Origin: Amycolatopsis methanolica 239
GTDB lineage: Bacteria; Actinomycetota; Actinomycetes; Mycobacteriales; Pseudonocardiaceae
Direction of reading: 5' to 3'
DNA length: 64,000 nucleotides
Assembly: GCF_000739085.1 (NCBI RefSeq)
Contig: NZ_CP009110.1
Coordinates: 3,038,001 to 3,102,000 of the forward strand
Shown: positions 7,295 through 18,317 of the stretch, piece by piece
Layout: each line of letters starts with the position of its first letter
Position numbering within the stretch: position 1 is the first letter of the stretch
Position numbers and translations under genes: made by a program
Notes under the pieces: generated by a model
The model's database searches: none
The model's input: the letters and a program-made list of their open reading frames with translations, nothing else
Told to the model about the DNA's origin: nothing

Positions 7295-8845
7295 ATGTCC
7301 AGAAGGCTGATCGTGTGCTGCGACGGCACCTGGTGCGACCCCGAACTGGACGCGGTCACCAACGTGCGCCGCCTGCACAACGCGCTCGCCGCGGCCGACA
7401 GCAGCGGCCGCGAGCAGGTGTCGAGCTACCGGCGCGGCGTCGGCACGCGGGGCGGGCTGCTGAGCAGGCTCGCCGCGGGCGCGATCGGCGCCGGGCTGCC
7501 GAAGGACATCGTGGCCGCCTACCTGTGGCTGTGCACCACCTACCGGCCCGGCGACCAGATCGCGTTGTTCGGGTTCAGCCGCGGCGCGTTCACCGCCCGA
7601 AGCCTCGCCGGGCTGGTGAAGGAATCCGGCCTGCTCGACCTGCGCGAGATCGACTCGCGCACCAGCGGGCTGCTGGCCGCCCGCGCCTACCGCCACTACC
7701 GCACCCGCTCACCCGGCGACACGTGGCGCGCCGGCCTGCGGTTCCACTTCGACCCGGAGCGGGCCGCGGACATCCCGATCGACTTCATCGGCGTGTGGGA
7801 CACCGTGGGCGCGCTCGGCGTGCCGGGCTACTTCGCCGGGCTGAGCGAACTGACCCCGGGCTCGCGTTACCGGTTCCACGACGTCGAGCTGAACCCGCAC
7901 ATCCCGTACGCCCGGCACGCGCTGGCGCTGGACGAGTGGCGACGGCCCTTCACCCCGGCGCGGTGGACGCCCAACGGCAGCACCGACATGGCGGAACGCT
8001 GGTTCCCCGGCAGCCACATGGACGTCGGCGGCGGCCACCGGGAGACCGGGCTGAGCGACATCTCGCTGCAGTGGATGACCGACGAGGCGGCGAAGTGCGC
8101 GGGCATCGCGTTCCACCCGCCCGCGCTGGCCGGCCTCGCGCCGGACCCGGCCGGCCTGCTGCACGACGACGACCGCGGCGTGTTCGGGGTCGCGCCGCCG
8201 CTGGTGGACCCGCTGCTGCAGCCGCTGCTGGAGGCCGGTCTGCACTACCGGCCGCGGGCGGTGCCCGCCGTCGTGCCCGGCGGCCAGGGCGGTGTGCTGG
8301 ACCCGTCGGCGCTGGAACGGCAGCAGGCGCAGCCGATCACCGGCGGCCCGTACCGGCGGACGCGCATCCTGGGCAGCGGCCAGCAGGCGACGATCGAGGT
8401 TCCGGCGGAGGAGCTGTGGACCGGCACCGGGCTCTACCTGGAACCCGGCCGGTACACCTTCACCGCGGCCGGGCAGTGGTCGGATGGGGTGGACTGGTGC
8501 GGGCCAGGCGGAATCCCGCTGCTGCGCGGGCTGAGCCCGCGGCGCCTGGCAGGCACGGTGGTCGGCGAGGCGGTCGGACTGTACCGGCTCGTGCGGCGCG
8601 CACGCGGCGCGCACGCCCCGCTCGCGCCGCGCGAGCTGGACCTGCCGTGGCTGTTCCTCGTCGGCTACGTCGCCAACGACAGCGACCGCACCAGCGCGGA
8701 CCCCGAACACGAACGGATCGCGATCGGCACGGGCACCGCCCACGAGGTCACCGAGCCCGGGTATTTCTACGCCTTCGCCAACGACGCGTGGGGTTTCTAC
8801 GGCCGTAACTCCGGCGCGGTCCGCCTGACGGTGACGCGGCTGTAG
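7295..8845 (+). CDS. DUF2235 / Tle1-type alpha/beta-hydrolase (probable phospholipase/lipase)
   Basis: 516 aa, GGAGGA ribosome site just upstream. It opens with LIVCCDGTWCDP, the DUF2235 hallmark. The catalytic triad is readable: Ser95 in GFSRGAFTARS, Asp169 in GVWDTVGALG, and His241 in GSHMDVGGGH. The family includes T6SS Tle1 phospholipases and many stand-alone bacterial proteins. Here the fold covers about residues 1-320, followed by a C-terminal beta-rich domain (~180 aa) of unknown role. No signal peptide is visible. It converges on the P450 gene. Beside a putative fatty-acid-oxygenase operon it could supply free fatty acid; that link is inference. Confidence 0.8.
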   Translation: MSRRLIVCCDGTWCDPELDAVTNVRRLHNALAAADSSGREQVSSYRRGVGTRGGLLSRLAAGAIGAGLPKDIVAAYLWLCTTYRPGDQIALFGFSRGAFTARSLAGLVKESGLLDLREIDSRTSGLLAARAYRHYRTRSPGDTWRAGLRFHFDPERAADIPIDFIGVWDTVGALGVPGYFAGLSELTPGSRYRFHDVELNPHIPYARHALALDEWRRPFTPARWTPNGSTDMAERWFPGSHMDVGGGHRETGLSDISLQWMTDEAAKCAGIAFHPPALAGLAPDPAGLLHDDDRGVFGVAPPLVDPLLQPLLEAGLHYRPRAVPAVVPGGQGGVLDPSALERQQAQPITGGPYRRTRILGSGQQATIEVPAEELWTGTGLYLEPGRYTFTAAGQWSDGVDWCGPGGIPLLRGLSPRRLAGTVVGEAVGLYRLVRRARGAHAPLAPRELDLPWLFLVGYVANDSDRTSADPEHERIAIGTGTAHEVTEPGYFYAFANDAWGFYGRNSGAVRLTVTRL

Positions 8846-9095
8846 GCCGTGCTGCCCGAGCGGCGAGCCCGTTGCGGTGCGCCGCCGGCCGGCGCGGGGC
8901 CGTTGGTGGCTGTTGGGTGGGGCCGCTACCCGCGGCGGCTCGGGCACAGCACCGGGGGCCGCGGCTGAGGTGGTTCACCCCCGGTGGCGGGCCGTCCAGC
9001 CACCGCCCCGGCACGTGCGCCGGGTCGCGGTGGTCCGCCTGACGATCAGCCGGCTCCAGGTCTTGTTGCCCGAGCGGCGAGCCGGTTGCGGTGGC
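8816..9095. repeat. Imperfect 66-bp direct repeat, 214-bp offset
   Basis: Bases 8816-8881 (3' end of the lipase gene plus spacer) recur with substitutions at 9030-9095. CCGCCTGACG is at 8821 and 9035, and GTTGCGGTG is at 8871 and 9085. The offset is constant at 214, so this is an old tandem duplication. The segment between holds a P450 fragment (8955-9033). Confidence 0.75.
8955..9033 (-). pseudogene. Duplicated fragment of the neighbouring P450 haem region
   Basis: On the minus strand this stretch reads PGRWLDGPPPGVNHLSRGP, nearly identical to the haem-loop entry of the intact P450 at about 9320-9400 (NHFSRGPQRC there). A 21-nt deletion separates the copies, and the frame decays straight after the Arg-Cys. 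It lies inside the tandem duplication that also copied the end of the lipase gene. It is too short to be functional and is debris from an unequal crossover. The whole 8846-9153 gap has no other gene that I can see. Confidence 0.75.
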
Positions 9096-9153
9096 CGGCG
9101 GCCCGCGCGCGGCCGGTGGTGCCGCCGGCGGGCCGGCCGACGGTCACCCGGCG

Positions 9154-10410
9154 TCAGGCGAGTACGGCTTCGATGCGGAAGTAGTCGAGCGCGTGGGGCA
9201 TCGGCGGCTGGGCGGGCAGTCGCGGGGTGCGGATGGTCAGCGTGCGCATCAACGCCGCGCGCAGCGCTTCGCGGCCGGTGAGCAGCGCCAGGTCCACCCC
9301 GGCGCAGCGCTGCGGGCCGCGGCTGAAGTGGTTCACCCCGGGCGGCGGGCCGTCCAGCCAGCGCCCCGGCACGAACGCGTCCGCGTCCGGCACGCGCGGC
9401 GGGTCGCGGTGGAAGAACGTGTTCACCACCAGGATCCGCGTCCCGGCCGGCAGGACCGTCCCGTCGTCCCGCACCACCTCGGCGCGGGTCTGCTTGGACA
9501 GCATCGGCGTGGTCGGCCACAGCCGCATCGTCTCCTGCAGGCACGCCGCCGCATGGTCCGCGTCCGCCAGGGCGCGTTCGGCGTCCCCCGGGCGCTGGCC
9601 GAGCACCGCGAGCGCCCGCAGCGCGTTGGCCGCCAGGGTGTCGCCGAGCGCGAACAGCCAGTGCGTGACCTGCGCGCCCGGCTCGGTGTCCGGACCAGCC
9701 GGCGTGTCCGCGATCGCCGCGGCCAGGCTGACCGGCTCGGCCCGTTCCAGGTGGCCCTCGACGCTCGCGCGGAAGGCGGGCAGACGCCGGGACGGCCGGC
9801 GCGGCAACCGGTTCGCCTCGGCCATCATCCGGCCCAGCGTCACCGACAGCGCGTCGTCGCCGGCGGCTTCGTCGCCCAGCACGACCCGGCGCGCGATCCG
9901 CTGGAACGCCCGGTTCCACGGCCGCCACCCGGTCACCGCGGGCAGCCGGGCGACCTCCTGCGCCACGCACTCCGCCACCCGCGGCACGATGGCGGGTACC
10001 GACGCGAGCACCGCGTCGGTGAACCGGCGCCGCTCCCGCCACGCCTCGCCCCGCGAAATCGTCACCGCGCCGGGCTGGAAGTGCGCCATGCCCCGGCGTT
10101 TCGGGTCCGGGTCACCGGCGTAGACGTCGACCGGCCCCTCGAGCACCCGGTCGGCGTCGCGCGGGTCGAGCAGGAGCACCGTCCCGCCGACGCGCACCGG
10201 CCGGGGGTTCCGGCGCGCCATCGCCGACAGGTGCCGCACCGCCGCGACGTCCACCCCGGCGGCCGCCGCGACCCGGACCATGGCGGGCCTGCGGGCGAAC
10301 AGCCCCTGCGCCAGGTTCGGCGCCAGCACCAGCGCGCCGACCGCCAGCGCGTCGGGCAGGGCCGCACGGGGAACCACGGTGCGGGCGGGGAGAGTGGTCG
10401 TGGACATCAT
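9154..10410 (-). CDS. Cytochrome P450
   Basis: About 418 aa from ATG 10410. GGAGG sits 5 nt upstream of this ATG (a second ATG follows immediately), which favours it over an ATG 7 codons earlier. Haem loop FSRGPQRCAG with Cys369; K-helix ETMR. The I-helix reads FALGDTLAAN and lacks the acidic-Thr pair of the usual AGxxT. An altered I-helix is typical of P450s that rearrange hydroperoxides or endoperoxides (CYP74, Ppo C-domains) rather than activate O2, but it can also occur elsewhere. It is divergent from the haem-peroxidase operon across a 253-bp spacer and probably co-regulated. Soluble: no membrane anchor. Confidence 0.88.
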   Translation of the reverse strand: MMSTTTLPARTVVPRAALPDALAVGALVLAPNLAQGLFARRPAMVRVAAAAGVDVAAVRHLSAMARRNPRPVRVGGTVLLLDPRDADRVLEGPVDVYAGDPDPKRRGMAHFQPGAVTISRGEAWRERRRFTDAVLASVPAIVPRVAECVAQEVARLPAVTGWRPWNRAFQRIARRVVLGDEAAGDDALSVTLGRMMAEANRLPRRPSRRLPAFRASVEGHLERAEPVSLAAAIADTPAGPDTEPGAQVTHWLFALGDTLAANALRALAVLGQRPGDAERALADADHAAACLQETMRLWPTTPMLSKQTRAEVVRDDGTVLPAGTRILVVNTFFHRDPPRVPDADAFVPGRWLDGPPPGVNHFSRGPQRCAGVDLALLTGREALRAALMRTLTIRTPRLPAQPPMPHALDYFRIEAVLA

Positions 10411-10663
10411 TTCCACCTCCGGCGAGGACAATTCCGCGGAGATTCGATTCCGGCCTTTTCCAGGCTACCCGGGAAATGCGCGATCGCCCGGCTGCCGGTG
10501 TTGGTGAAATTCTCGCAGCGGCGCCGCGCACTTGGGCCATCCGGGTACTGGACAGGGCGCGTGATCCGGTGCCACGCTGGGCATTTCGCGACGCACGCTG
10601 GCAGGCAAGGCGCCGATCTTCGCACGTCCATTCGCGCAACCGACGAATACGGGGGAACCCGCG
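10411..10663. promoter_or_regulatory. Divergent promoter region, P450 / haem-peroxidase operon
   Basis: The 253-bp spacer is clearly less GC-rich than its surroundings, with several AT stretches (for example GAAATTCTCGC near 10506 and AATTCCGCGGAGATTCG near 10430), as expected for two back-to-back promoters. The P450 ribosome site (GGAGG) lies at its left end. I cannot place exact -10/-35 boxes or an operator with confidence. Confidence 0.45.
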
Positions 10664-12484
10664 ATGGCCGATCAAGAAAACACCACCCGGACATATCGCA
10701 CCAGCCTGCCCTGGCGGGCGTTCACCATGATCACCGGAATCGTCGACCGGGTGGTGGGCTGGGACCGGCTGCCGGTCCCGCTCGGCCTGCTCGACCTGAT
10801 CGGGCTGCGCACCAGGCTGCGCCAGGAGAACCTGCACGACATGAGCCACCTGCCGGCGACGGGCACGCCGCCGGTGCCGCCGCTCACGCCGGACCGGCTG
10901 GTGAGCCGGTCCGTGGACGGCAGCCACAACGACCTGACCGAGCCCGCGATGGGCATGGCGGGCTCGCGGTTTGGCCGCAACATCCCGCTCGACAAGATCA
11001 CCCCGGCCACCGAGGACGCGGTCCTGAAGCCGAGCCCGCGCGAGATCAGCCGGAAACTGCTGACCCGGACCACGTTCGTGCCGGCCACCTCGGTGAACTC
11101 GCTGGTGGCCGCGTGGCTGCAGTTCATGATCCGCGACTGGTTCAGCCACGGCACCAGCCCGCAGGAGAACCCGTGGGTGGTGCCGCTGGCCGACGACGAC
11201 ACGTGGCCGGACAAGCCCATGCGCATCATGCGCACGCCGGACGACCCGACCCGCCCGCCGGGCGCGTCGATGCCCCAGACCCGCGTCAACGTGCTCACCC
11301 ACTGGTGGGACGGTTCGCAGATCTACGGCGTCACCGGCGAGGATCAGGGCTGGCTGCGCAGCGGCGAGCAGGGCAAGCTGCGGGTGCTCGACAACGGCCT
11401 GCTGCCGATCCCCGACGACCCATCCCGCGACCCCGCGCTGGTCCCCGGCTTCTGGCTCGGCACCGAGATGCTGCGCACCCTGTTCACGTTGGAGCACAAC
11501 GCGATCTGCGACCGGCTGCACGCCGAGTACCCGTCGTGGCCGGACGAGGAGCTGTTCCAGCGCGCCCGCCTGGTCACCTCGGCGCTGCTGGCGAAGATCC
11601 ACACCGTGGAGTGGACGCCCGCGGTGATCAGTCACCCGACTACGAAGGCCGCGCTGCGGGCCAACTGGTTCGGCCTGGCGGGGGAGCGGGTGCACCGGCT
11701 GTTCGGCCGCATCAGCGGCAGCGAGGTGGTCAGCGGGATCCCGGGCGGCGCGACCGACCACTATGGGGTGCCCTTCGGGCTGACCGAGGAGTTCGTCGCG
11801 GTGTACCGGATGCACCCGCTGGTGCGCGACACCTGGAGCCTGCGCTCCGCCGGGGACGACGGCACGATCCTCGACTGCGAATTCCCCGACATCTCCGGCG
11901 CCAACGCGCTCAAGGTCCTCAACAGCATCGCGATGACCGACCTGCTGTACTCCTTCGGCACCCTGCCGCCGGGCCTGGTCACGCTGCACAATTTCCCGAA
12001 GCACCTGCAGCAGTTCCAGCGCCCGGACGGGCACCTGCAGGACCTGGCGGCCACCGACATCCTGCGCTCGCGGGAGCTCGGCGTGCCGCGGTACAACGAG
12101 TTCCGCCGCCTGCTGCACCTGCCGCCGGCGGGGGACTTCCGCGACCTGACCGCCGACCCGGAGTGGGCCGAGGAGATCCGCCGCGCCTACGACGGGGACA
12201 TCGAGCAGGTCGACCTCACGGTCGGCATGTTCGCCGAGCGCCGCCCGGAGGGCTTCGCGTTCAGCGACACGGCGTTCCGCATCTTCGTCCTGATGGCGTC
12301 TCGGCGGCTCAACAGCGACCGGTTCTTCACCGAGTACTACACACCGCGGGTCTACTCCGACGCCGGGCTGGCGTGGATCCGGGACAACTCGATGGCGACC
12401 GTCCTCACCCGGCACTACCCGGGCCTGCGGCCGGTGCTCGCGACGGTGGACAACGCGTTCGCCGCCTGGGAGGTGCGGGCATGA
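10664..12484 (+). CDS. Animal-type haem peroxidase (alpha-dioxygenase/COX-like)
   Basis: 606 aa. It shows the PGHS/alpha-DOX architecture: FMIRDWFSHG around residue 157, THWWDGSQIYG, LFTLEHNAICDRL, then VAVYRMHPLV with the radical-type Tyr381 and proximal haem His384. Their spacing matches COX Tyr385/His388. In the dioxygenase family the residue before Asp in the first motif is the distal haem His; here it is Arg157 (CGC). Such enzymes add O2 to fatty acids. Fungal Ppo proteins fuse this domain to a P450, and here a P450 is encoded divergently. It is the first gene of an operon linked by overlapping stops and starts. No signal peptide. Confidence 0.85.
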   Translation: MADQENTTRTYRTSLPWRAFTMITGIVDRVVGWDRLPVPLGLLDLIGLRTRLRQENLHDMSHLPATGTPPVPPLTPDRLVSRSVDGSHNDLTEPAMGMAGSRFGRNIPLDKITPATEDAVLKPSPREISRKLLTRTTFVPATSVNSLVAAWLQFMIRDWFSHGTSPQENPWVVPLADDDTWPDKPMRIMRTPDDPTRPPGASMPQTRVNVLTHWWDGSQIYGVTGEDQGWLRSGEQGKLRVLDNGLLPIPDDPSRDPALVPGFWLGTEMLRTLFTLEHNAICDRLHAEYPSWPDEELFQRARLVTSALLAKIHTVEWTPAVISHPTTKAALRANWFGLAGERVHRLFGRISGSEVVSGIPGGATDHYGVPFGLTEEFVAVYRMHPLVRDTWSLRSAGDDGTILDCEFPDISGANALKVLNSIAMTDLLYSFGTLPPGLVTLHNFPKHLQQFQRPDGHLQDLAATDILRSRELGVPRYNEFRRLLHLPPAGDFRDLTADPEWAEEIRRAYDGDIEQVDLTVGMFAERRPEGFAFSDTAFRIFVLMASRRLNSDRFFTEYYTPRVYSDAGLAWIRDNSMATVLTRHYPGLRPVLATVDNAFAAWEVRA

Positions 12485-14175
12485 CCGTCGTGGACGAGGC
12501 CGCGCTGCTGCGCGCGACCCACGACGAGCTGGACCGGCTGTTCCGGGCCAGCCCGCCCGGGGAGGTGCCGCACGGCCCGATGGACGGCACCGCGGTGCTC
12601 GCGCCGGGCACGCCGGTGAACCGGCTGGTCGCCTCGCTCGCCCGGTCGGTGGCCTGGCGCGGCAAGGTCTTCGACCCCGCGGGCCGGACCCTGGCGAACC
12701 GCATCGGCCCGGTCGGCGTGACCGCGATCAAGGCGGTCGTCGCGCCCGGGCACAGCTGGGTGGACGGCCGGGAGTGCGTCGTCATCGACTACTCCAAGAC
12801 CTCGCTGGTGGCCCACGGGGTGCGGGACGAGATCCGGCTGGTGGCCAAGGACCTCTACCTCGGCGTCGTGTGGCTGTGGCGGCGCCGGGTCGGCTGGTTC
12901 CTGCTGCGCAGGCCCGGCACCGGCGCCGCGGCCAGCCCGTCGCCGCACCAGATCCCGCTCACGATCCGGGCGCCGCTGCGGCAGGGCCACGAGGGCGACG
13001 TGCCCGGGCTGCTCGACGAGCTGCGCAAGGGCGTCGACTCCGACGGCGGCCCGTTCCGCGACATGGCCGGAGTGCACTTCGCGCGGGTGTTCGTCCTCCC
13101 GCCCGACGGTGACGGCCGCGAGTCGCTGATCTACATGGCCGAGCTGGACACGCCCGTGCTGGCCCACCTGCACGACCTCGCCGCCGCCCGCGGCGACGCG
13201 CTGTCCGCGTTGCTCGGATTGTGCGAGGAGTACCCGGAAACCCGCACCGCGGGCGGCCGGGTGCGGTGGCTGCGCGACCACGAGATCCCGCCCGCCGCGA
13301 CCTATGTGCACCGCACCGGGCGAAGCCTCGCGCGGATCCGGGACGAGGCGAGGCTGCGGGAACGCATCGAGCAGTTCCTCGACGAGAAACCGGAGTGGAC
13401 GGGCACCGGCGAGGTGGCCGTGCACCGTGCGATCCGGGACTTCGTCGCGCAGCAGCCGGACCTGTCGTGGGCGCTGCGGCCCGCGGCCCCCACCGCGGTG
13501 GGGCACCGCCTGCGCGAGGCCGCGCACCTGGTCGCGGTCCCCGCGGTCGCGCCGCTGCTGCTGCCGGCCGTCCCGGCGCTGGCCGCGCTGATCCGCCTCA
13601 AGGAGCTGCGCGACGAGCCCGAGCACGCGACCGTGTCCCGGGCGCGGCTCGCGGAGCTGACGCAGCAGGAGGACACCCGGGTGCAGAACCCGTTCACCGC
13701 CACCGGTTACGTCAAACCGGGGCCGGTGCGGCACTTCACCCTGCGCACCGTCCTCTACGGACTGGACTGGTTCAACCGGCACGTCTACGCCACCGGCGGG
13801 CTGGCCGGCGTGCGGACCATCCACTTCGCCCGGTGGGTCTACCTCGACGGCGGCCGCAGGCTGGTCTTCGCCAGCAACTACGACGGCAGCCTGGAAAGCT
13901 ACATGGACGACTTCATCGACAAGTTGTCCGCCGGGCTCAACGCGGTGTTCAGCAACGGCGCCGGCTACCCGCGCACCCGGTGGCTGCTGTGGGGCGGGGC
14001 GCGGGACGAGCAGGCCTTCAAGTCCTACCTGCGCGCCCACCAGCTGCCCGCCGTCTGGTACTCCGCCTACGGCGACCTGTCGGCCCGCAACATCGACGAC
14101 AACTCCGCCCTCCGGGACGGCCTCACCCGCGACCTCGACGCGGAGGCGGCGCGGTCCTGGCTGGCTCTGCTGTGA
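12481..14175 (+). CDS. Unrecognised two-domain protein of the haem-peroxidase operon
   Basis: 564 aa, ATG overlapping the previous stop (ATGA). The N-terminal ~110 residues form a compact domain (VPHGPMDGTA, ANRIGPVGVT, WVDGRECVVIDYSKTS, VRDEIRLV, YLGVVWL). The C-terminal ~160 residues (LYGLDWFNRHVY, GVRTIHFARWVYLDGGRRLVF, SNYDGSLESYMDDFID) look like an alpha+beta ferredoxin-type domain of the kind in DyP/EthD-like proteins. An alanine/leucine-rich hydrophobic stretch (AVAPLLLPAVPALAAL) near residue 355 may touch membrane or lipid. I do not recognise a named family. Position between two peroxidases suggests an accessory or substrate-handling role. Confidence 0.7.
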   Translation: MTVVDEAALLRATHDELDRLFRASPPGEVPHGPMDGTAVLAPGTPVNRLVASLARSVAWRGKVFDPAGRTLANRIGPVGVTAIKAVVAPGHSWVDGRECVVIDYSKTSLVAHGVRDEIRLVAKDLYLGVVWLWRRRVGWFLLRRPGTGAAASPSPHQIPLTIRAPLRQGHEGDVPGLLDELRKGVDSDGGPFRDMAGVHFARVFVLPPDGDGRESLIYMAELDTPVLAHLHDLAAARGDALSALLGLCEEYPETRTAGGRVRWLRDHEIPPAATYVHRTGRSLARIRDEARLRERIEQFLDEKPEWTGTGEVAVHRAIRDFVAQQPDLSWALRPAAPTAVGHRLREAAHLVAVPAVAPLLLPAVPALAALIRLKELRDEPEHATVSRARLAELTQQEDTRVQNPFTATGYVKPGPVRHFTLRTVLYGLDWFNRHVYATGGLAGVRTIHFARWVYLDGGRRLVFASNYDGSLESYMDDFIDKLSAGLNAVFSNGAGYPRTRWLLWGGARDEQAFKSYLRAHQLPAVWYSAYGDLSARNIDDNSALRDGLTRDLDAEAARSWLALL

Positions 14176-14181
14176 GGTGCG

Positions 14182-15525
14182 ATGACCCTCGACTTCAGCG
14201 ACACCCAGGGCCTGCTCGTCCGCGGCTACGGCGGGCTGCGGCACGCCACGTTCCTGGTGTTCGCGGTCACCGACGAGCGGGCGGCCCGCGCGACGCTGCG
14301 AAACCTCGCCGGCCAGGTGTCCACGGCGGCGGCCAAGCCGGCCGAGACCGCGGTCAACGTGGCCCTCACCGCCGCCGGGATGCGCGCGCTCGGCGTCCCC
14401 GCGGCGGTCGTCGACTCGTTTTCGGCGCCCTTCGCCGAGGGCATGACCACCGAGCACCGCAGCCGCCTGCTCGGCGACTCCGGCGACGCCGACCCGCGAC
14501 GGTGGGCGTGGGGCGGGCCGTCCACCGCGCCGGTGCACCTGCTGGTCCTGGTGTACGCGGCGACCGTGACCGAGCTGCGGCGGCGGGAGGCCCAGATCAA
14601 GCGGGAGAGCGAGGGACTGTCCCTGACCGTCGCGCTGCCCACCGACGAGCTCACCACGACCGAGCCGTTCGGCTTCCGCGACGGCCTGTCCCAGCCGAAG
14701 CTGTCCGGCCTGGGGGAGGAGGCCGTGCCCGGCGACGTCGAGCTGGGCGAGTTCGTCCTCGGCTACCGCAACGCCTACGGGCGGCTCACCGAACGGCCGC
14801 TGCTGCCCGCCGACGCCGATCCGCGCGGCCTGCTGCCGCGCACCCCCGACGGCGCCGCCGACCTCGGCCGCAACGGCAGCTACCTGGTGTTCCGCCAGCT
14901 CCGCCAGGACGTCGACGGGTTCTGGGCGCACCTGCGCGAGCGGGCCGGCGGCGAGCAGCCCGCCCGGCGGCTCGCGGCGAAGATGGTGGGCCGGTGGCCC
15001 AGCGGCGCGCCGCTCGTCCTCGCCCCGGAGCGGGACGAGCCCGCGCTCGCCGAACAGGGCTTCGCCTACCAGGCCGAAGATCCGCACGGCCTGTCCTGCC
15101 CGCTGGGCGCACACGTGCGCCGTGCGAACCCGCGCGACTCGCTCGACCCCGACCCGGGCTCGGCGAAGTCGGTGGCGGTCAACAACCGGCACCGGCTGCT
15201 GCGCCGCGGCCGCAGCTACACGATCGCCCGCGCGGACGGTTCCGGCCCGGACGAACGCGGGCTGCACTTCCTGTGCCTGAGCGCCAACCTGGCCCGGCAG
15301 TACGAGTTCGTGCAGCACACCTGGGTCAACAGCCCGGTGTTCGACGGTCTGCACGACGACGCCGACCCGCTGGTCGCGCCGAAGAACGGGCGGGGCGCGC
15401 TGTTCACCGAACAGGCCACGCCGGTGCGGCGGCGGCACGGCGGGTTGCCGTCCTTCGTGCGGGTCCGCGGCGGCGCGTACTGCTTCCTGCCCGGCGTGGC
15501 GGCACTGCGGTACCTGGCGGCGTGA
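14182..15525 (+). CDS. DyP-type haem peroxidase
   Basis: 447 aa. The distal GxxDG motif is intact (FGFRDG, Asp167) and the proximal haem ligand is His311 in CPLGAHVRRANPRDS. FLCLSANLARQYEFVQ carries the distal Arg region. Size and insertions fit the longer (C/D-type) DyP class. No Tat signal, so it should be cytoplasmic. Starts 6 bp after the preceding gene, with the next gene overlapping its stop (TGATG), so it is translationally coupled. DyP enzymes use H2O2 or organic hydroperoxides; fatty-acid hydroperoxide as substrate here is inference from the operon. Confidence 0.92.
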   Translation: MTLDFSDTQGLLVRGYGGLRHATFLVFAVTDERAARATLRNLAGQVSTAAAKPAETAVNVALTAAGMRALGVPAAVVDSFSAPFAEGMTTEHRSRLLGDSGDADPRRWAWGGPSTAPVHLLVLVYAATVTELRRREAQIKRESEGLSLTVALPTDELTTTEPFGFRDGLSQPKLSGLGEEAVPGDVELGEFVLGYRNAYGRLTERPLLPADADPRGLLPRTPDGAADLGRNGSYLVFRQLRQDVDGFWAHLRERAGGEQPARRLAAKMVGRWPSGAPLVLAPERDEPALAEQGFAYQAEDPHGLSCPLGAHVRRANPRDSLDPDPGSAKSVAVNNRHRLLRRGRSYTIARADGSGPDERGLHFLCLSANLARQYEFVQHTWVNSPVFDGLHDDADPLVAPKNGRGALFTEQATPVRRRHGGLPSFVRVRGGAYCFLPGVAALRYLAA

Positions 15526-16709
15526 TGAACTGGCTGAAACTGCTCAACGACGCGGTGCTCGGGCTGGTCGCGGCGGAACGGCGGGTCGACCCGTGGGTCC
15601 GGCCCGCCTTCGACGCCCTGGTCCGGCCGCCGGTCCAGGCGCTCGTGCAGGCCGCGCTCGTCCGCAGCCGGGTGCCCGGCTCGCCGGTGCCCGCCGAGGA
15701 GACGCCGCTGCCCGGTGAGGCCGCCGCCACCGACGAGATCGTCGACCTGATGAGCCGGTTCCTGCACCGGCACTACCCGCACGGGCACGCGCTGCGGGCG
15801 GGCAACACGAAGACCTACGGCGTGGTGCGCGGTTCGCTGCGGATCCACGACGGCCTGCCGTTCCCGGTGCGGCACGGGCTGTTCGCGCGCCCGGCGACTT
15901 ACCCGGCCTGGGTGCGGTTCGCCGGCCCCGGGCCGTTCGCCCCGCCGGATTTGAAGGACAACGGGGTGCTCAGCATCGGCGTCAAGCTCGTCGGGGTGCC
16001 AGGGCCGAAGCTTCTCGACGACGAGCGGCACACGCTGGACCTCACCGGCATCAGCGCGCCGACGTTCACCACGCCGGACGTGGTGGAGAACGCGAAGCTG
16101 CAGCGGCAGATCGGGCACGACTCGCCGCTGTGGTACTTCGTGAACCCGCGGGACAGCCACCTCGCCGACCTCGTGATGCAGGGCCTCTACGCCCGCACGC
16201 ACAGCAGCCCGCTGGACACGCCGTACTGGAGCTGCGCGGCGTACCTGCTCGGCGGGGGCCGGGCGATGCAGTACCGGTTCGTGCCGCGGGGCGCGCGCGG
16301 GCGGGCGCCGTGGAACCCGTCCGACGATTACCTGTCCGAGGCGCTGCGGGCCACGCTCGCGCAGCGCCAGGCCGGGTTCGACCTGTGCCTGCAGGTGCAG
16401 ACCGAGCCGCGGCGGATGCCGGTCGAGGACGCCTCGATCGTGTGGCCGGAGCGGCTGTCGCCGCCGGTGCGGGTCGCCACGCTGGTCCTGGACCGGCAGG
16501 AGCTTGACCCGGCAGAGCAGCGCGCCCGGGCGGACAGCCTGTCGATCAACCCGTGGCACACCATCGCCGAGCACCGGCCGCTGGGCAGCCAGAACCGGGC
16601 GCGGCGGGAGGTCTACCAGCAGCTGTCCCGGCTGCGGCAGGACATGAACGCGGTCAAGCACGTTGAACCGGGCGCCGAGCGGTTCTTCCCGGAGGACGGC
16701 CGTGGTTGA
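15525..16709 (+). CDS. Catalase-family (catalase-like/AOS-like) haem protein
   Basis: 394 aa, start ATG 15525 overlapping the DyP stop. The catalase-like core is seen in RAGNTKTYGVVRGSL, FPVRHGLFARPATYPAWVRFAG and GVLSIGVKLVGVPG. The 'RxxHxK' position that carries the distal catalytic His in catalases holds Asn94 (AAC). This family also contains allene oxide synthases that convert fatty-acid hydroperoxides. Residues 290-350 (PPVRVATLVLDRQ, INPWHTIAEHRPLGSQNRAR) match the C-terminal end of small catalase-related proteins. I could not identify the proximal Tyr. In this operon a hydroperoxide-rearranging role is more likely than H2O2 dismutation (inference). Confidence 0.75.
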   Translation: MNWLKLLNDAVLGLVAAERRVDPWVRPAFDALVRPPVQALVQAALVRSRVPGSPVPAEETPLPGEAAATDEIVDLMSRFLHRHYPHGHALRAGNTKTYGVVRGSLRIHDGLPFPVRHGLFARPATYPAWVRFAGPGPFAPPDLKDNGVLSIGVKLVGVPGPKLLDDERHTLDLTGISAPTFTTPDVVENAKLQRQIGHDSPLWYFVNPRDSHLADLVMQGLYARTHSSPLDTPYWSCAAYLLGGGRAMQYRFVPRGARGRAPWNPSDDYLSEALRATLAQRQAGFDLCLQVQTEPRRMPVEDASIVWPERLSPPVRVATLVLDRQELDPAEQRARADSLSINPWHTIAEHRPLGSQNRARREVYQQLSRLRQDMNAVKHVEPGAERFFPEDGRG

Positions 16710-17589
16710 GCACCTGCGGGTCACCGCGAACGGGCTGGACTTCCACGTGCTGGCCGACGGCCCGCGCGACGCCCCGCCGGTCCTGCTGCTGCACGGATTC
16801 CCGGAGGGCGCGGCCGGGTGGCGGCCGACGATGGCCGCGCTGGACGGCCTGCGGGTGTACGCGCCCGACCTGCGCGGCTACCCGTGCAGCGACCGGCCGC
16901 GGCGGGGCTACGACGTGTTCACGCTCACCGACGACGTCCGGCTGCTCATCGAGGCGCTCGGGCTGGACCGGCCCGCGCTGGTGGCGCACGACTGGGGTGG
17001 CGCGCTGGGGTGGATCTTCGCCCACCGGTTCGGCCCGGTGATCAGCAAACTGGTCGTGGTGAACTGCACCCACCCGCGCACGCTGGTGCGGGCCGCGCTG
17101 ACGTTCCGGGAGCTGCAGCCGCTGCGGATCCCCTGGGTGCTGCCGTTCCAGGTGCCGTTCGCGCCGGAGTTCCTGCTGACGACCCGGTTGGGCCGTGCCG
17201 GGCTGCGGCTGTCGTTCACGCTGCGGGAGGGCTCCCGGGGCCGGATGGACCGGGCGCTGGTGGACGAGCTGGTCGGCCGGTTCCGGTCGGCGGCCGATCT
17301 GGGCCCGCCGATCGACTACTACCGTGCGATCCTCGCGACGCTGGTGTTCCCGCTGTCCCGCGCGCGGCTGTACGCCACCTACGACCGCCCGATCCCGGTG
17401 CCGGTGACGCTGGTGTGGGGGCTGGAGGACGAGGCGCTGCCGTCGGCCGTGGCGCGGGACAGCTTCCGCGACGCGGGCTGCGACGTGGAGTGGCGGCCGC
17501 TGGAGGGCATCGGGCACTTCGTGGACCTGGAGGCGCCCTCGTTGCTGGCGGCGGAGATCGAGCGGGCGGTACTCGTCAAATCGGCTTGA
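16702..17589 (+). CDS. Alpha/beta hydrolase, epoxide-hydrolase type
   Basis: 295 aa from GTG 16702, chosen because GGAGGA lies 6 nt upstream; it overlaps the catalase-like stop. Oxyanion motif HGFPEG, nucleophile Asp97 in VAHDWGG (Asp rather than Ser marks epoxide hydrolases/haloalkane dehalogenases), acid residue around Asp243 (WGLEDEALP) and His272 in GIGHFVD. A cap domain with paired Tyr candidates (IDYYRAIL, YATYDRP) fits epoxide opening. As last gene of the haem-peroxidase operon it would hydrolyse an epoxy fatty acid to a diol. The chemistry class is well supported; the substrate is inference. Confidence 0.85.
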   Translation: MVEHLRVTANGLDFHVLADGPRDAPPVLLLHGFPEGAAGWRPTMAALDGLRVYAPDLRGYPCSDRPRRGYDVFTLTDDVRLLIEALGLDRPALVAHDWGGALGWIFAHRFGPVISKLVVVNCTHPRTLVRAALTFRELQPLRIPWVLPFQVPFAPEFLLTTRLGRAGLRLSFTLREGSRGRMDRALVDELVGRFRSAADLGPPIDYYRAILATLVFPLSRARLYATYDRPIPVPVTLVWGLEDEALPSAVARDSFRDAGCDVEWRPLEGIGHFVDLEAPSLLAAEIERAVLVKSA

Positions 17590-17608
17590 TGTATCAAGGC
17601 GGTTTGAT
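17585..17608 (+). promoter_or_regulatory. ArsR-type operator over the start of the fusion gene
   Basis: Two overlapping inverted repeats: CTTGAT-GT-ATCAAG (17585-17598, perfect) and ATCAA-N6-TTGAT (17593-17608). The second is the spacing used by actinobacterial ArsR repressors. It abuts the candidate ATG at 17607, so the downstream ArsR fusion probably represses itself. Confidence 0.65.
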
Positions 17609-18317
17609 GCACCATGGGGAGATGGTCCCGGATTTCGTCCGGCTCGCCGCCCACCCGCTGCGGTGGCAGCTGCTCGGCCTGCTCGCGGGCGGGGACCTGC
17701 GCGTCCGCGAACTGGTCGCGCTGACCGGTGAGCCGCAGAACCTGGTGTCCTACCACTTGCGGCTGCTGCGCGAGGCGGGTCTGGTGACCGCGGCGCGCAG
17801 CACCTTCGACGGCCGGGACAGCTACTACCATCTCGACCTGCGCCGGTGCGGGGAGGGACTCGCGGCGGCGGGCGCCGCGCTGCACCCGTCGCTGGGCCCG
17901 GGCGCGGTGCCGGTGCGGCGGGGGATCGCCGTGTTGTTCGTGTGCACCGGGAACAGCGTGCGGTCGCCGATTGCCGAGGCGCTGCTGCGGCACCACACCG
18001 AGGGGCGCGTGCGGGCGGCGAGCGCCGGGGTGCGGCCGGCGGAGCGCCTGCACCCGTCCGCCGTGCGCGTGTTGCGCGAGCTGGGCGTGGCGGTTTCGGG
18101 GAGGACCCGCGACGTCCGCACGATGACGCGGCGCCGGTTCGACCACGTGATCACGTTGTGCGACAAGGCGCGGGAGGTCTGCCCGGACCTGGGGGCGCGG
18201 CGGGCGCACTGGAGCATTCCCGAGCCCGAGGGGTACGAGGGTTTCCGCGCGACGGCCGCGGAGATCGATGTCCGTGTCCGGCACCTGGTGCCGGCCCTGA
18301 CCGGAGGAGCGGTGTGA
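17607..18317 (+). CDS. ArsR regulator fused to low-MW phosphatase/arsenate-reductase domain
   Basis: About 236 aa. Residues ~5-85 are an ArsR winged helix (FVRLAAHPLRWQLLGLLAGG, EPQNLVSYHLRLLREAGL). Residues ~105-235 are a low-molecular-weight phosphatase/ArsC domain with the CX5R loop CTGNSVRS (Cys113) and the later LCDKAREVCPDLG Cys pair and HWSIPEPEG. The CX5R loop plus downstream Cys fits thioredoxin-type arsenate reductases. Starts at 17589, 17607 and 17622 are possible; 17607 sits just after a palindromic operator and after AAGGCGG. No arsenite pump gene is adjacent, so arsenate may not be the substrate. VOC gene downstream is coupled (TGATG). Confidence 0.82.
   Translation: MHHGEMVPDFVRLAAHPLRWQLLGLLAGGDLRVRELVALTGEPQNLVSYHLRLLREAGLVTAARSTFDGRDSYYHLDLRRCGEGLAAAGAALHPSLGPGAVPVRRGIAVLFVCTGNSVRSPIAEALLRHHTEGRVRAASAGVRPAERLHPSAVRVLRELGVAVSGRTRDVRTMTRRRFDHVITLCDKAREVCPDLGARRAHWSIPEPEGYEGFRATAAEIDVRVRHLVPALTGGAV

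Follow-up and report, generated by a model that had tools for sequence, protein, structure and literature searches.

What chemistry is carried out by a run of closely packed heme-protein genes in the soil bacterium Amycolatopsis methanolica 239? The genes lie between positions 7,295 and 17,589 of a 64,000-nucleotide stretch (the window; contig NZ_CP009110.1, positions 3,038,001 to 3,102,000) of a 7.24 Mb genome assembled as a single contig, and one of them, a homologue of fatty acid alpha-dioxygenase (alpha-DOX), is the only PF03098 match in that genome. An earlier note on this DNA had proposed an oxylipin pathway. The part of that proposal that stands is a lipid-oxidation set with a dioxygenase, whereas the allene-oxide step looks unlikely and the partner genes point to carbon C2. 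We therefore favor, at a probability of roughly 0.55, the reading of the cluster as a bacterial unit for fatty-acid oxidation, centered on the alpha-dioxygenase, with its reactions and the C2 position predicted from sequence.

All seven open reading frames (ORFs) named earlier are present, and their overlapping starts and orientations are as described. Five genes form a tight unit on the + strand, encoding the alpha-DOX, an unnamed protein, a DyP-type peroxidase, a catalase-like protein and an epoxide-hydrolase-like enzyme. The ATG of the unnamed protein (12481) overlaps the alpha-DOX stop by 4 nt, 6 nt separate this gene from that for DyP, the catalase-like ATG (15525) overlaps the DyP stop by 1 nt, and the hydrolase GTG (16702) overlaps the catalase-like stop by 8 nt. 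A cytochrome P450 gene diverges from this unit, and a Tle1-like gene converges on the P450 gene. The P450 start at 10410 is our choice within an ORF that opens at 10431.

7295..8845, + strand: Tle1-like alpha/beta hydrolase, a candidate phospholipase with a GFSRG nucleophile elbow (PF09994)
9154..10410, − strand: cytochrome P450 with Cys motif FSRGPQRCAG and I-helix ALGDTLAAN (PF00067)
10664..12484, + strand: alpha-dioxygenase homologue, YRMH kept, Arg157 for the distal His (PF03098; phmmer to 4kvj)
12481..14175, + strand: unnamed protein with a calycin-like N-domain and two ABM/SchA-like halves (predicted fold)
14182..15525, + strand: DyP-type peroxidase with GFRDG, AHVRR and LLRRGRSY (TIGR01413; PDB 8re3)
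15525..16709, + strand: catalase-fold protein, proximal motif RxxxY, distal His replaced by Asn94 (predicted fold)
16702..17589 (start probably GTG 16702), + strand: alpha/beta hydrolase, epoxide-hydrolase-like, with HGFPE and HDWGG (PF00561; PDB 5ng7)

The alpha-dioxygenase homologue and its neighbors

The window dioxygenase is an alpha-DOX homologue, for which C2 oxygenation is predicted. PF03098 scores 344 bits against a cut-off of 25, and residues 28 to 603 align by phmmer with the fatty acid alpha-oxidase 4kvj, which we take to be a plant enzyme, at E 4.7e-112, a full-length homology. Other peroxidases and cyclooxygenase (COX) chains match at 2e-21 or weaker. The earlier label of an alpha-DOX/COX-like heme peroxidase is thus upheld, with far the stronger resemblance on the alpha-DOX side. 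This closeness argues against an oxylipin route, in which mid-chain oxygenation of an unsaturated fatty acid would be followed by conversion to an (allene) epoxide by a catalase-like allene oxide synthase (AOS) or the P450, and the hydrolase would open the epoxide to a diol. We consider that route improbable.

The catalytic Tyr and proximal His are present in the window protein (YRMH). Both residues, along with the His of HTVEWT, are kept in all 73 rows that have letters at these positions, among 75 aligned loci. The window protein also retains the His of HTVEWT and the Arg of ASRRL, presumably the carboxylate-binding residues of plant alpha-DOX. Two close alpha-DOXs (L090 and L143), for which no partners were found, carry Val in place of the conserved ASRRL Arg together with a distal Arg, and their substrate binding may differ.

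At the distal position, the His of the VHDW motif is replaced by Arg157. We did not treat this His as defining an alpha-dioxygenase because the available text of PMC8720084 calls the residue only partly conserved. The same text reports alpha-DOX from five bacterial phyla, including Actinobacteria, and commercial interest in the aldehyde-forming enzymes.

The catalase-like protein matches no family in a Pfam/NCBIfam scan, PF00199 included, and its family profile searched against the PDB reached only E 0.48 (1u5u) and 1.1 (3e4w). A catalase fold is nevertheless predicted. The best fold matches are coral AOS (cAOS) chains, with catalases close behind, which speaks for the oxylipin route and for the coral parallel drawn in the earlier note. 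Arg360 and Tyr364 of the RxxxY motif are invariant in 25 rows and, judging from the catalase motif, Tyr364 is the likely proximal heme ligand. The parallel breaks down on the distal side, where MAFFT alignment with the host's own catalase places Asn94 at the position of the distal His and Ile-Ser at a second site occupied by Asn-Asn. According to the accessible part of PMC5617202, the distal residues of cAOS are H67 and N137, and the distal His is used in catalysis. These positions are assigned from the MAFFT alignment and from the R-x-x-H spacing reported there for cAOS; aligning the catalase-like profile to the host's own catalase with hhalign gave nothing usable. With Asn in the window protein where catalase and cAOS have their distal His, an allene-oxide step is unlikely here.

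We accordingly did not class the protein as an allene oxide synthase, as both the distal His and the distal Asn are missing, nor as a monofunctional catalase, given the distal Asn94 and the lack of a PF00199 match. The distal Asn is missing also from the His-type relatives L097, L100 and L103. Two fused relatives pass PF00199 (28.1 and 26.5 against 25), and L103 falls below it. In Rhizobium leguminosarum (L176, 2869-5883), a catalase-like match lies inside a coding sequence annotated as a LodA/GoxA CTQ-dependent oxidase, possibly a fusion of a catalase-fold domain with an amine or amino-acid oxidase.

At an E-value of 0.1, the protein encoded at 12481-14175 has no match in Pfam or NCBIfam. Its structural model comprises a calycin-like N-domain (residues ~1-146) and two ABM/SchA-like halves (154-530), with a hydrophobic helical hairpin at residues 340 to 377, and the modeled protein is probably attached to the membrane. 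It was rejected as a heme peroxidase, its best folds being calycin and ABM/SchA-like; DyP is absent among the listed fold matches, which leaves room for a distant tie.

Its downstream neighbor is a DyP-type peroxidase by family model and by motifs. TIGR01413 scores 100.8, just above its cut-off of 100.5, the Pfam DyP models stay under theirs, and the best PDB match is 8re3 (E 5.4e-53, residues 3-446). The GxxDG motif is present as GFRDG, and we take AHVRR and LLRRG to be the His and Arg motifs. GFxDG occurs in 41 of 41 DyP rows and [AS]HxRR in 40, with a gap in the remaining row. These intact catalytic motifs, and the origin of three core proteins in peroxide-handling superfamilies, would suit a defense unit in which DyP, the catalase-like protein and the alpha-DOX homologue detoxify peroxides or oxidized lipids and no product is made. 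However, the catalase-like protein and the alpha-DOX both lack the distal His, yet the oxygenase Tyr is kept in the alpha-DOX. Lipases recur beside alpha-DOX genes, and the system is sparse for a general defense, its full-length unnamed protein being found in its own genome only among 396 phylum genomes (three candidates scored per genome). We give defense little credence.

The P450 scores 58 bits for PF00067 (cut-off 22.8) and carries FxxGxxxCxG as FSRGPQRCAG. Its I-helix had been called altered, a description that proves weaker than stated, for ALGDTLAAN retains the acid-alcohol pair D-T; this too counts against the oxylipin route. The Tle1-like protein has a Tle1 catalytic domain (PF09994, 245.8 bits against 27, residues 3-264) and, in the PDB, weak similarity to a Tle1 phospholipase (E 2.2e-4). 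We do not assign the protein as a type VI secretion system effector. Its C-terminal part (window 8375-8842) appears to us to resemble a PA-IL-type lectin, although Pfam and PDB sequence searches showed none. The hydrolase reaches 86.8 bits for PF00561 (cut-off 25.8) and no NCBIfam cut-off. Its best PDB match is the epoxide hydrolase 5ng7 (E 1.9e-31, residues 14-304), a point in favor of the oxylipin route, and HGFPE and HDWGG are presumably epoxide-hydrolase-like motifs.

A recurrent core and its distal residues

A genome scan seeded with the unnamed protein, and hence not a random sample, yielded 36 loci. Neighbors were counted within 7 kb, and 5 of the 36 stretches are shorter than 6 kb. As a gene caller based on third-position GC content gave antisense shadows, named partners were placed by tblastn or blastp. 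DyP is found in all 36 loci on the same strand as the unnamed protein, with match gaps of 9 to 138 nt, and these two proteins are the most constant pair across loci. Alpha-DOX accompanies them in 28 loci, as does D129, a small DUF4267-like protein under the Pfam cut-off; catalase-like proteins are present in 26 and patatin-like proteins in 10. Because this core recurs across phyla, the grouping is beyond chance. Its hosts include Amycolatopsis, Streptomyces, Kitasatospora, Actinomadura and Geodermatophilus, as well as metagenome-assembled genomes of Chloroflexota, Dormibacterota, Acidimicrobiia and Vicinamibacteria.

The P450, Tle1-like and hydrolase genes, in contrast, are local additions outside this wide core, since they lie near only 2, 1 and 2 of the 36 loci. 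Conservation of the gene set, the absence of which the earlier note had named as a refutation, is thus observed for the core and rarely for these three. The rarity of the hydrolase further weakens the oxylipin route. Within the genus, the full-length unnamed protein occurs in 5 of 19 genomes, where the core is flanked by the P450 in five, the Tle1-like gene in four and the hydrolase in three. The nearest named relative at the locus is that of Amycolatopsis tucumanensis, with an unnamed protein that is 98% identical.

The system is patchily distributed, plasmids included. Such occurrence would suit the synthesis of a lipid or fatty aldehyde for secretion, perhaps as a volatile or antibiotic-like compound, in which the ABM/SchA-like protein would be a tailoring enzyme. 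The C-terminal part of the unnamed protein comes closest in fold to WhiE-ORFI and Abx(+)O, both from polyketide pathways. Among the recurring neighbor clusters we recognized neither a carrier protein nor a synthase, a weak objection in that it draws on the annotated minority of neighbors; an ABC-transporter-like cluster (N5) occurs in 4 loci. We regard a secreted product as unlikely.

The distal residues vary with gene content. In alpha-DOXs accompanied by the unnamed protein and DyP, the distal residue is Arg (32) or Lys (4) in 36 of 37 loci (33 of 34 unique), whereas it is His in all 18 readable cases among 19 loci with a fused or adjacent catalase-like protein or a P450. Catalase-like proteins in the former class have the distal Asn wherever one is present (29 of 29 loci; 26 of 26 unique), and outside it 8 of 9 have His, the other (L168, with its alpha-DOX cut short) having Asn. 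The two changes are not strictly coupled, as L069 combines His in the alpha-DOX with Asn in the catalase-like protein.

A link between DyP and the distal swap is not independently shown, however, and this weighs against the reading that we prefer. The residue changes 3 times on the 75-row tree, and independent pairs mostly show no difference (a 45-row tree is alike). The pattern therefore amounts to about one clade, and we rejected the correlation as independent evidence. Arg-type alpha-DOXs without partners also exist: 9 of 13 partnerless loci are non-His, so that such enzymes do not always have a DyP nearby, and one of them (G184) yielded no match to the unnamed protein.

Other arrangements of bacterial alpha-dioxygenases

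Two overlapping genome samples contained alpha-DOX matches, distant peroxidases included, in 31 of 396 and 46 of 394 genomes. The full-length loci were taken from these samples, and we classified 75 loci in all (72 without three repeats), leaving six partial matches (G361, G367, G420, G506, G524 and G548) outside the classification. Among the 75, 37 have the unnamed protein and DyP, 6 are fused to a catalase-like protein, 3 have one beside them, 5 have a P450, 5 have a P450 plus lipase, 1 has a lipase only, 5 have D129 with or without others, and 13 have no partner that we found. The proposal that a P450 or catalase-like protein partners the dioxygenase gains from this survey, in which other alpha-DOXs adjoin P450s of the same type and adjoin or fuse with catalase-like proteins. 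The same holds for a lipase in the set, for lipases of different families (Tle1-like, patatin-like and class-3-like) recur beside alpha-DOX.

Single ORFs joining the catalase-like and alpha-DOX domains occur in Actinomycetota in both domain orders. The catalase-like domain comes first in L103 (7864-10779, 971 aa), L104 (8965-11943, 992 aa) and L165-L167, and the alpha-DOX first in L097 (8974-11886, 970 aa). Three further fused proteins, catalase-like first, are encoded on plasmids of Rhizobium phaseoli, R. jaguaris and Phyllobacterium (L169, 3960-6788; L172, 3939-6788; L174, 3936-6785), those of L169 and L172 being annotated merely as "peroxidase family protein". The fusion state needs two changes on the 75-row tree, which fits two origins in opposite orders. 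In Nonomuraea (L175), the two matches abut. In two phyla, the catalase-like/alpha-DOX pair has a protein of ~460 aa close by (L174, 6785-8200; kin in L104, L167, L169, L172 and L175), and no Pfam or NCBIfam family matches the L174 copy.

A second arrangement adds enzymes of 2-hydroxy and 2-oxo acid type. In all six P450-lipase loci (L102, L156, L157, L159, L160 and L171; five genomes and a plasmid of Streptomyces sp. NBC_00069), a thiamine diphosphate (ThDP) enzyme and a GlcD-like flavin adenine dinucleotide (FAD) oxidase stand in one row with alpha-DOX. The row reads ThDP enzyme, GlcD-like FAD oxidase, P450, lipase, alpha-DOX, and looks like a complete alpha-oxidation pathway. In L156, the only pair scanned, the ThDP enzyme scores above the cut-off for benzoylformate decarboxylase (649 against 493), and the oxidase remains under the GlcD cut-off (414.9 against 567.9). 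The five aligned P450s of these loci (without L171) have no I-helix D-T pair. ThDP enzymes also adjoin the fused proteins L104, L172 and L174, the L174 copy reaching no NCBIfam cut-off among those shown.

In a third arrangement, an N-terminal P450, the C-terminal part of the unnamed protein and DyP form one polypeptide of 1423 to 1620 aa on alphaproteobacterial plasmids (L085, 5880-10151; L086, 5817-10148; L088, 5793-10655). PF00067 scores are 37.8, 20.2 and 27.4 bits, respectively, against 22.8, with L086 below the cut-off. Upstream of each lies a protein of cluster C9, annotated as an adenylate/guanylate-cyclase-domain protein, a SARP regulator or a hypothetical protein. A ThDP enzyme is found near such a fusion in Sulfitobacter, Skermanella has the P450, unnamed protein and DyP as neighbors, and one Rhizobium protein contains the unnamed and DyP parts only. 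These fusions link the P450, the unnamed protein and DyP, as the other fusions link alpha-DOX with the catalase-like protein.

Just 3′ of the window hydrolase (17590-18317, + strand), an ORF starting at ATG 17622 appears by eye to encode a fusion of an ArsR-type regulator with a low-molecular-weight phosphatase/arsenate-reductase domain. It is preceded by ATCAAggcggTTTGAT, which is operator-like in appearance.

A predicted alpha-oxidation unit and its known relatives

In the fatty-acid oxidation unit that we favor, the fatty acid would be released by a lipase, which is Tle1-like in the window and patatin-like or class-3-like in other loci, and the alpha-DOX would add O2 at C2 to give a 2-hydroperoxy fatty acid. 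The catalase-like protein, the P450 or both could then turn the hydroperoxide into a 2-hydroxy acid, a 2-oxo acid or a one-carbon-shorter aldehyde, with the epoxide-hydrolase-like enzyme as a putative local tailoring step. The unnamed protein might hold the lipid. DyP may supply peroxide chemistry, either to generate the tyrosyl radical of the alpha-DOX or to reduce the hydroperoxide, a role suggested by the loss of the distal His from both the alpha-DOX and the catalase-like protein. Oxidation at C2 is preferred over the allene-oxide route because partners elsewhere resemble 2-hydroxy and 2-oxo acid enzymes together with a lipase, and alpha-oxidation is the simpler reading of lipid oxidation here than an allene-oxide route.

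The distal His is the means by which alpha-DOX enzymes start their own tyrosyl radical. One can imagine a division of labor in this clade. The alpha-DOX would have lost this residue and the catalase-like partner its peroxide chemistry, and a dedicated DyP, anchored to the membrane through the calycin/ABM protein, would trigger the radical and thereby control fatty-acid alpha-oxidation. We offer this joint scenario tentatively, as possible but rather unlikely. If true, it would be a heme-dioxygenase pathway with its ignition outsourced to another peroxidase.

Through these clusters, what bacterial alpha-DOX does becomes a question that can be tested on a set of short operons, and they form a natural experiment on the purpose of the distal His in heme dioxygenases. 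Related clusters with swapped or fused partners in several bacterial groups may represent a little-studied bacterial lipid oxidation. Searching titles and abstract openings, with most subscription journals outside the search, we found no publication on the alpha-DOX/DyP/catalase-like cluster, on the alpha-DOX/catalase-like fusions or on the ThDP-GlcD-P450-lipase-alpha-DOX operon.

The known systems resemble the cluster in part. The window enzyme shares full-length homology, the catalytic Tyr and the proximal His with plant and cyanobacterial alpha-DOX (4kvj; CalDOX and LepDOX in the available text of PMC8720084), but it belongs to a multi-heme cluster and its distal residue is Arg; the words catalase, operon and gene cluster do not appear in the main text of that paper. 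In coral AOS-LOX (3dy5, 1u5u; PMC5617202, accessible part), a catalase-fold domain is fused to a fatty-acid dioxygenase, as in relatives of the window proteins. The coral dioxygenase is a lipoxygenase, however, and the window protein is a separate gene product without the distal His. Fungal DOX-P450 fusions, as treated in the available part of PMC13049297, likewise combine a COX-family dioxygenase with a P450 acting on the hydroperoxide, whereas the window P450 is separate, divergently encoded and keeps its D-T pair.

Closest in composition is a Nostoc 10S-dioxygenase paired with a catalase-related 10S-hydroperoxide lyase (cited in the same part of PMC13049297), likewise a bacterial COX-family dioxygenase with a catalase-related hydroperoxide enzyme, and a precedent that lends some weight to the oxylipin route. 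Unlike that pair, which is encoded by separate genes and acts at C10, the present system is of the alpha-DOX type, is fused in relatives, and adds DyP, the unnamed protein, a P450 and lipases. Partnerships of a COX-family dioxygenase with a P450 or a catalase-related protein are already known, and the alpha-DOX version with DyP and the unnamed protein appears, within our literature search, to be new. Prostaglandin-type, fungal and cyanobacterial lipid oxidation all join a COX-family dioxygenase to a second heme enzyme that processes its hydroperoxide. Bacteria repeat this design around alpha-DOX in several arrangements, among them fusions in either order, and alongside a conserved unnamed protein.

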